From: Catellatospora paridis
GTDB taxonomy: Bacteria > Actinomycetota > Actinomycetes > Mycobacteriales > Micromonosporaceae
Assembly (NCBI RefSeq): GCF_009720365.1
Contig: NZ_WBZD01000038.1
Coordinates: 1 to 64,000 of the forward strand
Reading direction: 5' to 3'
DNA: 64,000 nucleotides
Below the pieces are notes generated by a model. The model made no database searches. It was not told where the DNA came from and saw nothing but the letters and a program-made list of their open reading frames with translations. This document shows, one piece after another, positions 6,429 through 7,205 of this stretch; within the stretch, counting starts at the first letter, position 1; each line of letters opens with the position of its first letter. Both the position numbers and the translations under genes were made by a program.

Positions 6429-7069
6429 CCGGGCCGCGTTCCGGCGCGGTGCGCGGCGTGGTCGTGGTGACCGACCGCCGCCAGGCGGCCCGGCCGCTGG
6501 TCGACGTGGTCGCCGGGGCCGTGACCGGGGGCGCGCGGATCGTGCTGCTGCGGGAGAAGGACCTGCCGCGCACGCAGCGCCTGCGGCTCGCGGCGGCCCT
6601 GCGCGAGCTGCTCCGCCCCGTCGGTGGGCTGCTCATCGTGGCCGGTCAGGACACCCTCGACGGGGAGGCGCTGCACCTGCGCGCGGGCGCGGTCGGCCCG
6701 CTGGGGCGGCCCCGGCTGCTGGGCCGCTCGTGCCACGACGAGGCGGAACTCGACCGGCTGTCCACCGAGGACTACGTGACGCTGTCGCCGGTCTTCCCCA
6801 GCCGCAGCAAGCCCGGTCACGGCCCGCCGCTCGAACCTGCCGGGCTGTGCCGCCTGGCCGCCCGCGCGGGCCGTCCGGTACTGGCGCTGGGCGGGGTCGA
6901 GACACCCGAGCTGGCCGCGGCCTGCCGTGACGCCGGGGTCGCCGGGGTGGCCGTGATGGGCGCGGTGATGCGGGCCGCCGATCCCGCGCAGGCGTACGCG
7001 CGGCTGCGTGCCGCATGGGACGGCGTGTGCGACGGATCATCGCGCGACGGCGGGAGAGTGCTGGCATGA
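6422..7069 (+). CDS. Second ThiE/TenI-like protein
   Basis: A 215-residue paralogue of thiamine-phosphate synthase. It keeps LLREKD (42-47), the [15 protein letters not shown] phosphate loop and [10 protein letters not shown], but the VND segment reads [10 protein letters not shown] and the HxGQxD segment is absent ([12 protein letters not shown]). Loss of these diphosphate/magnesium-side residues resembles TenI, the thiazole tautomerase that is a ThiE look-alike, and position right after thiG suits that role. The gene at 3490-4116 has the opposite pattern of losses. The ATG overlaps the end of thiG, and its stop overlaps the first of two tandem mini-ORFs leading into thiD. Thiamine-phosphate synthase activity remains possible. 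Confidence 0.75.
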
Positions 7070-7205
7070 GCGAACGCAGTGAGCGAGTCAGCAGGTTCGG
7101 CGATGCCGTTGACGAGCGCAGCGAGGAGATGGCATGAGTGAACGCAGTGAGCGAGTCAGCAGGTTCGGCGTTGCCGTTGACGAGCGCAGCGAGGAGATGG
7201 CATGA
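7066..7205 (+). repeat. Tandem pair of 68-bp MSER/DERSEE mini-ORF repeats
   Basis: Two copies of a 68-bp unit (7067-7134 and 7135-7202) differ at only two bases. Each encodes a 23-residue peptide beginning [12 protein letters not shown] and ending [11 protein letters not shown] 7066 overlaps the stop of the preceding gene, the stop of mini-ORF 1 (7066-7137) overlaps ATG 7134 of mini-ORF 2, and the stop of mini-ORF 2 overlaps ATG 7202 of thiD, each time as ATGA. Each unit carries GAGCGCAGCGAGGAG just before the next start, which supplies a ribosome binding site. Related units occur at 15358, 26145, 36915, 39455 and 45176. Confidence 0.9.

Follow-up and report, generated by a model that had tools for sequence, protein, structure and literature searches.

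A probable MIRU-type mobile element with a relay mini-ORF at gene starts in Catellatospora

The window, the whole 64-kb stretch of Catellatospora paridis DNA that was analysed, carries seven copies of a 66- to 78-nt mini-ORF at six sites (Table 1). The initial annotation had described five clear copies and one diverged copy, and each was found where it had been placed. The gene pairs it had named, thiE-thiD, oxidoreductase-nirB, rimI-tsaD and two ABC exporter genes, are indeed those at the junctions, and alr-alpha/beta hydrolase is a further one. Counting a 6-aa frame that accompanies one of the copies, all eight frames in the window are open and have lengths that are multiples of three. The tsaB-type protein of the window has its best named relatives in seven Catellatospora genomes, with 77-97% identity. 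A TPP riboswitch (RF00059, 65 bits) lies at 4300-4412 on the forward strand, upstream of a set of genes that includes the thiE-thiD junction.

Table 1. Element copies and the associated relay frame in the 64-kb window
Feature	Location	Coordinates	Strand	Mini-ORF and overlaps
Element, copy 1 of tandem	thiE-thiD	7066..7137	+	Mini-ORF start overlaps thiE stop
Element, copy 2 of tandem	thiE-thiD	7134..7205	+	Mini-ORF stop overlaps thiD ATG (7202)
Element	Pyr_redox/BFD oxidoreductase to nirB	15358..15432	-	Mini-ORF MSERSELIMRLEEHVGAERSEVTA
Element	Start of 201-aa gene (start 26148)	26145..26222	-	Mini-ORF VSERSGSPARRAASPADERSQEKKA
Decayed element	alr-alpha/beta hydrolase	36915..36983	-	Mini-ORF VSERHLRPHPAGHGRHIDGVIS
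Element	rimI-tsaD	39455..39532	+	Mini-ORF start overlaps rimI stop
Second relay frame MSEEKA (6 codons)	rimI-tsaD	39529..39549	+	Stop overlaps tsaD GTG (39546)
Short-form element	Between two ABC exporter genes	45176..45241	+	Mini-ORF

The mini-ORF stop overlaps the downstream start in every window copy, as had been claimed, with the qualification that the rimI-tsaD copy leads first into the MSEEKA frame, which also overlaps the stop of that element and may have arisen when a copy collapsed between two ends that resemble each other. Overlap of the mini-ORF start with the upstream stop, claimed for most copies, is present at four of the six sites. The exceptions are the start at 15432, which follows the upstream stop immediately and without overlap, and the start at 26222, which has no overlapping upstream stop but a promoter-like TACCAT 6 nt ahead of its GTG, suggestive of a leaderless start. 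The tandem unit at thiE-thiD measures 68 nt, and the decayed element retains both overlaps without a core match. The core itself, GACGAGCGCAGCGAGGAG (18 nt, up to three mismatches), occurs six times in the window versus 0.39 expected, a count that none of 100 shuffles reached.

Across the home assembly (8.97 Mb, 35 contigs), the core with up to three mismatches gave 303 matches compared to 101 for the reversed control, whereas the core followed by GGCRTGA, with up to two mismatches, gave 105 matches and its reversed control none in all 61 genomes searched. We sampled all 96 home-genome copies with at most one core mismatch (61 exact and 35 with one) together with 10 two-mismatch copies within the same stretches, 106 in total; 12 three-mismatch copies in those stretches and the two- or three-mismatch copies elsewhere were left out. 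The sampled copies have mini-ORFs mostly of 63-78 nt and make up 85 sites, 67 of them single, 15 double and 3 triple, so that 18 of the 85 are tandem. Genes near the sites were called with a codon-usage score trained on 26 window ORFs.

At 70 of the 85 home-genome sites the start of a coding gene overlaps the last stop of the element by 4 nt, while 48 sites overlap an upstream stop on the left and 40 show both overlaps. At three further sites another in-frame start lies 6 nt earlier, three have other offsets (one is rimI-tsaD with its second frame), and for nine no co-directional coding start was found downstream. Chance matches probably account for some of these exceptional sites, and one is a fusion. 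At G000:C6:338566 (locus L009, near 1465-1530) the final stop is lost and the copy is in frame with the long open frame that follows; the element may there encode the N-terminus of the following protein. The placement test set beforehand asked whether most copies lie away from gene junctions, and with this distribution the claim withstood it.

Left overlap is lacking at 28 of the 75 sites with a usable 5' end, and in 4 of these 28 the motif TANNNT stands exactly 6 nt before the start, compared to 0 of the 47 left-overlapping sites (Fisher p 0.017). Given these non-overlapping sites, the element occurs at first genes too, some of them apparently leaderless. The bridging of operon junctions, by which the elements had been characterized, therefore holds as the commonest case, but the general rule is insertion at a start codon. 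The window contains 157 intergenic DTGA sites (some within elements), and about 26 of its 57 roughly called genes start with DTGA; random insertion into intergenic DTGA thus fails to explain a bias of 70 in 85 toward gene starts, which may reflect either targeting or selection. The same bias would be expected of a regulatory cassette owned by the host and positively selected to balance the expression of neighboring genes, as opposed to a tolerated mobile element, and we return to this with the orthologous junctions below.

The reading frame proved to be as constrained as the placement. By script, 93 of the 106 copies are in frame, rising to 75 of the 79 whose 5' end agrees at 15 or more of 20 positions, and in 72 of these 79 the distance from the left RTGA to the core is 45, 48 or 51 nt. 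The relay could be followed at 70 of the 85 sites (nine had no recognizable 5' end and six no coding start), and the chain of overlapping frames reaches the gene unbroken at 66 of them by script and at 68 after inspection; with a stricter 5' threshold, 61 of 62 relays are unbroken. Two of the failures (C22:118050 and C3:582132) are start misassignments, in frame from an ATG 10 nt upstream, while C4:308775 has a nonsense codon and C13:237252 a GTA where the start was expected. At four sites that contain a frame-shifted copy, an additional difference brings the relay back, so that these pass as well, and some copies are fused into frames of 46-49 codons. In simulations, a 1-nt indel left 15.6% of the relays intact and a substitution 95.5%. 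The other test fixed in advance was whether frame-breaking indels are as common as in-frame ones, and the observed proportion of unbroken relays, set against the 15.6% surviving a simulated indel, speaks otherwise; on comparison of copies, the translation-relay reading is therefore well supported by evolution.

Identity between sites, calculated over 825 equal-length pairs of 78 copies, was 82% at the 5' end, 35-36% in the flanks and 95% in the 3' core, the last value being inflated because copies were picked by that core. The middles were 51% identical with a wide cut (26% expected) and 41-43% with tight cuts, in which the half-conserved edges are excluded (28-30% expected). The initial annotation was thus right about the conserved ends, but the middles it called unrelated are strongly diverged and yet 41-51% identical versus 26-30% expected. 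A few distant sites have a middle in common, which makes descent of copies from one another probable. Conservation of the nucleotide ends extends to most synonymous sites, with core position 9 as the single site that varies freely (76 C, 15 A, 11 T and 4 G among 106 copies), and a Shine-Dalgarno-like GAGGAG stands ahead of the gene start. These features would be expected of a plain DNA or RNA repeat, serving as a ribosome-binding-site donor, an mRNA processing site or a recombination site, in which the open frame is incidental. Such a repeat would not, however, account for 66 of 70 unbroken relays where 15.6% survive a simulated 1-nt indel, nor for frame and overlaps that are kept in decayed copies. 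Structure gives it no help either, since none of the eight predicted base pairs showed a compensatory change in an alignment of 22 copies and the single Rfam match in the window is the TPP riboswitch, away from the elements. We regard a plain repeat as quite unlikely.

A second possibility is that the elements encode a family of functional micropeptides (MSER...DERSEE) at gene starts; the peptide ends do recur, similar ends are seen in other genera, and some mycobacterial copies read DDAERSDEEERR. What argues against this is how little of the peptide is held constant: the middles diverge strongly, decayed copies keep the relay but little of the peptide, fused copies make 46-49-codon frames, and mycobacterial copies are divided between two frames (14 and 10 of 24 candidates, from 22 of 45 copies). 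Moreover, two genomes, G838 and G806, read the same 3' nucleotide word in another frame (SAPGAKRGR). Because decayed copies keep the relay and the 3' word is reframed in these two genomes, it does not seem to be the peptide that is conserved, and a micropeptide function is in our view very improbable.

Related Catellatospora present occupied and empty states at five junctions and decayed states at four, the distinction between occupied and empty being our own reading of the sequences. At rimI-tsaD, the element or a remnant is found in the window and four species, with a direct RTGA overlap in C. bangladeshensis and C. tritici and a 2-nt gap in sp. KI3. The element is missing from the outgroup Hamadaea, whose junction still passes as a relay of 5 codons, whether by chance or not; short relays can thus have other origins. 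The abcA-abcB junction is occupied in the window and three species, holds a short remnant with GAGGAG and a direct overlap in C. methionotrophica, and is empty in C. bangladeshensis (ATGA) and in C. tritici and sp. KI3 (TGATG). The alr-hydrolase junction carries the element in the window and in five species, with decay in four of these six copies, and is an empty ATGA in C. tritici and sp. KI3. Six genomes are occupied at thiE-thiD and five are empty at ATGA, and copy number varies (two in G000, one in G003, none in G002 and G008).

The oxidoreductase-nirB junction is occupied in four genomes (G000, G004, G006 and G008), empty in three (G002, G003 and G007) and not comparable in four. Here the left start lies 0 or 2 nt after the upstream stop, the frames measure 72, 75, 75 and 78 nt, and the two states can be laid side by side: the empty site of G002 reads TGATC-ATGA-CG and the filled site of G008 TGATC-ATGA...ATGA-CG, with one ATGA in the former and two in the latter. 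At the other four junctions, all 21 occupied states, which are not independent events, keep both -4 overlaps and an open frame; their lengths vary by multiples of three, and eight of them have no core match within three mismatches. Taken together, the orthologous junctions indicate that the element is mobile and that the relay is kept even under sequence decay. That a given junction can be seen empty, filled and decayed from one related species to another is new here.

These junctions also bear on the host-owned cassette raised above. The 3' ends of the element persist in remnants as possible ribosome-binding sites, as such a cassette would predict, but presence is patchy among close relatives, copy number ranges from 1 to 109 within the genus, several copies are decayed and the gene pairs joined in the window are functionally unrelated. 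We therefore consider a positively selected host cassette unlikely.

The reading we favor, with a probability of about 0.82, is that the window elements are copies of a MIRU-type mobile element that inserts at the RTGA of start codons and carries a relay mini-ORF. The element would insert in the sense direction at the RTGA (mostly ATGA or GTGA) of a start codon, leaving RTGA on both sides. As the inserted length is 3n-1, the left RTGA would start the mini-ORF and the right RTGA would both end it and start the displaced gene. Where the target is an operon stop/start, ribosomes finishing the upstream gene would restart on the mini-ORF and then on the downstream gene, and the GAGGAG brought in by the element, some 5 nt ahead of the displaced gene, would assist the latter restart; if a first gene is hit, the mini-ORF would take over the start. 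Duplication of RTGA is seen directly at nirB, and that it would be the general rule is supported by the leading bases of the two RTGA, left and right, which agree more often than expected by chance (44 A/A, 10 G/G, 12 G/A and 4 A/G at 70 sites, Fisher p 7e-4; p 5e-4 in a stricter set of 62 sites). Ribosomes presumably use the mini-ORFs, the peptide itself would be irrelevant, and we infer that the element persists because it does the host little harm. Placement, frame and orthologous junctions all support the earlier proposal of a translation-coupling cassette rather than a plain DNA repeat.

The initial annotation knew of no description of the element, but its kind is already known from mycobacteria as the MIRU (PMC12548453, PMC2734929). 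In the relevant passages of a 2025 review (PMC12548453), MIRUs appear mobile, insert at start codons and have an ORF coupled at -4 nt, a coupling stated there as likely, not as tested, and likely to limit the impact of insertion; an excerpt of PMC2734929 describes them as 40-100-bp units dispersed at many loci. The Catellatospora elements are likewise short dispersed units (106 copies over 85 sites, most of the mini-ORFs being 63-78 nt long), tandem at some loci (18 of 85, with varying copy number at thiE-thiD), inserted at start codons with an ORF that overlaps the next gene by 4 nt (70 of 85) and mobile to judge from empty and filled junctions, and they share the words GAGCGNAGCGA and GAGGAG near the 3' end. 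The small ORF of MIRUs was reportedly described by Supply et al. in 1997 as co-directional with its neighbors and overlapping both with its ends; here the 3' overlap is present at 70, the 5' overlap at 48 and both at 40 of the 85 sites.

The differences lie in host and sequence. The hosts are Catellatospora and other actinomycetes, not Mycobacterium, and we therefore call the element MIRU-type and not strictly a MIRU. Catellatospora often has units of 68 or 71 nt, and the 5' end TGAGCGAGCGCAGCGAGCGA is absent from the mycobacterial copies inspected. Similarity is modest: 45 mycobacterial copies, selected with a core that has letters in common with the Catellatospora profile, scored 4.9-12.9 bits against it (median 8.1), while a background of 3293 windows had a 99th percentile of 2.6 and a maximum of 11.3 bits. 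Relay retention is also stricter in the home genome, with 66 of 70 sites unbroken, than in the single mycobacterial genome put through a similar test, where 6 of 16 MIRU sites pass. The Catellatospora element is thus a wider variant of the known MIRU kind, with another host range and sequence.

The mycobacterial query was the MIRU core; it matched 89 of 198 genomes of one genus, and its reversed control none. We have taken this genus to be Mycobacterium from the expansion of the PE family, presumably a mark of mycobacteria, in three genomes tested (25, 134 and 94 matches); since the PE marker also matches an E. coli control, and matches twice each in two genomes of another genus, it is expansion and not presence that identifies Mycobacterium. 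Many mycobacterial copies, all selected for the words GAGCGNAGCGA and GAGGAG, have the layout RTGA-mini-ORF-RTGA. Candidate frames were obtained for 22 of the 45 copies and for 23 none, and the core (L161-L172, L195-L210) is read both as ERSDEEE and as MQSEAMRRSG. The mycobacterial copies thus use two frames, which proved wrong our supposition that they never share a core frame with Catellatospora copies. The spread of the core is wider than the range given for the senX3-regX3 units in the part of PMC4213456 that treats them, namely only M. leprae and the tuberculosis complex.

Other known systems share some of these properties. REPIN/RAYT and MITE-type elements are likewise short, non-autonomous, mobile and present in many copies. 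They have inverted repeats or hairpins, whereas the present element has no supported hairpin (0 of 8 pairs compensated) and sits in the sense direction at gene starts. In bicistronic coupling leaders, as outlined in the same 2025 review (PMC12548453), a short upstream ORF ending at the next start similarly delivers ribosomes, but the leader here is a dispersed mobile repeat.

Within the genus, the core followed by GGCRTGA was found 22, 4, 77, 109, 6, 82, 59, 13, 2 and 1 times in ten relatives, while outside it 5 of 50 genomes have 1 to 5 matches. A strict two-ended pattern matched 9 of 394 sampled genomes of the class, home genome included, in eight genera (reversed control 0), and yielded 15 distinct complete copies from eight other genomes of seven other genera, with one additional copy cut by a contig end. 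All 15 have a mini-ORF that ends in RTGA with a 4-nt overlap with a following putative start; in one case the frame that follows is another copy. The mini-ORF traverses the core in 14 of the 15, and in the L223 copy it stops ahead of the core, at an RTGA overlapping a further start.

Among plasmid records, one of nine covers 80% of the query, a Streptomyces plasmid copy that has the same layout and is a clear relative, while the Embleya and Nonomuraea records match the 5' end only; four phage records match weakly and none covers 80% of the query. A profile-model search of the phylum gave matches in 151 of 396 genomes; to judge from 30 loci inspected, most of them are due to chance, and with only 12 candidates scored per genome the search did not amount to a census. 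We found no description of such elements outside mycobacteria in an open-access library, and their occurrence outside Mycobacterium, as judged from the strict two-ended pattern, is new here. A broader proposal is tentative and on balance doubtful: an actinomycete-wide mobile class, of which MIRUs would be one branch, that carries nothing but a ribosome relay and is inserted by machinery recognizing the start sites of translation, RTGA in the sense direction. If true, insertion into a start codon costs the host little.

MIRUs serve mostly as typing markers, and we know of no mobilizing enzyme for them. A soil genus with 1-109 copies per genome and with empty, filled and decayed junctions offers a natural experiment in which a relay is kept while its sequence is lost, and makes Catellatospora a system in which to look for that enzyme and for how the element aims at start codons. 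No larger composite, autonomous copies were seen in the home-genome stretches fetched, in that no 5' end there lacks a 3' end within 130 nt. Y1 transposases (PF01797, IS200-like), the sole family tried as mobilizer, occur in six of the seven Catellatospora genomes with at least 13 copies and in none of the four with at most six, but most low-copy genomes are also more distant, which confounds the association with relatedness. We do not take it as evidence: G007 has 59 copies and no hit, the home-genome hits are fragments, and two others contain a stop.

Repeats of a quite different sort, at L159 and L160 in G400 and at L156 and L157 in G345, also contain the words GAGCGAGCGCAGCGAG and GACGAGCGCAGCGAGGAG; among these repeats are TTGAGCGAGCGCAGCGAGTCGAAACG and a stretch ending GTGTCGAAACCC. 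The two words are perhaps a sequence recognized in several actinobacterial repeats.
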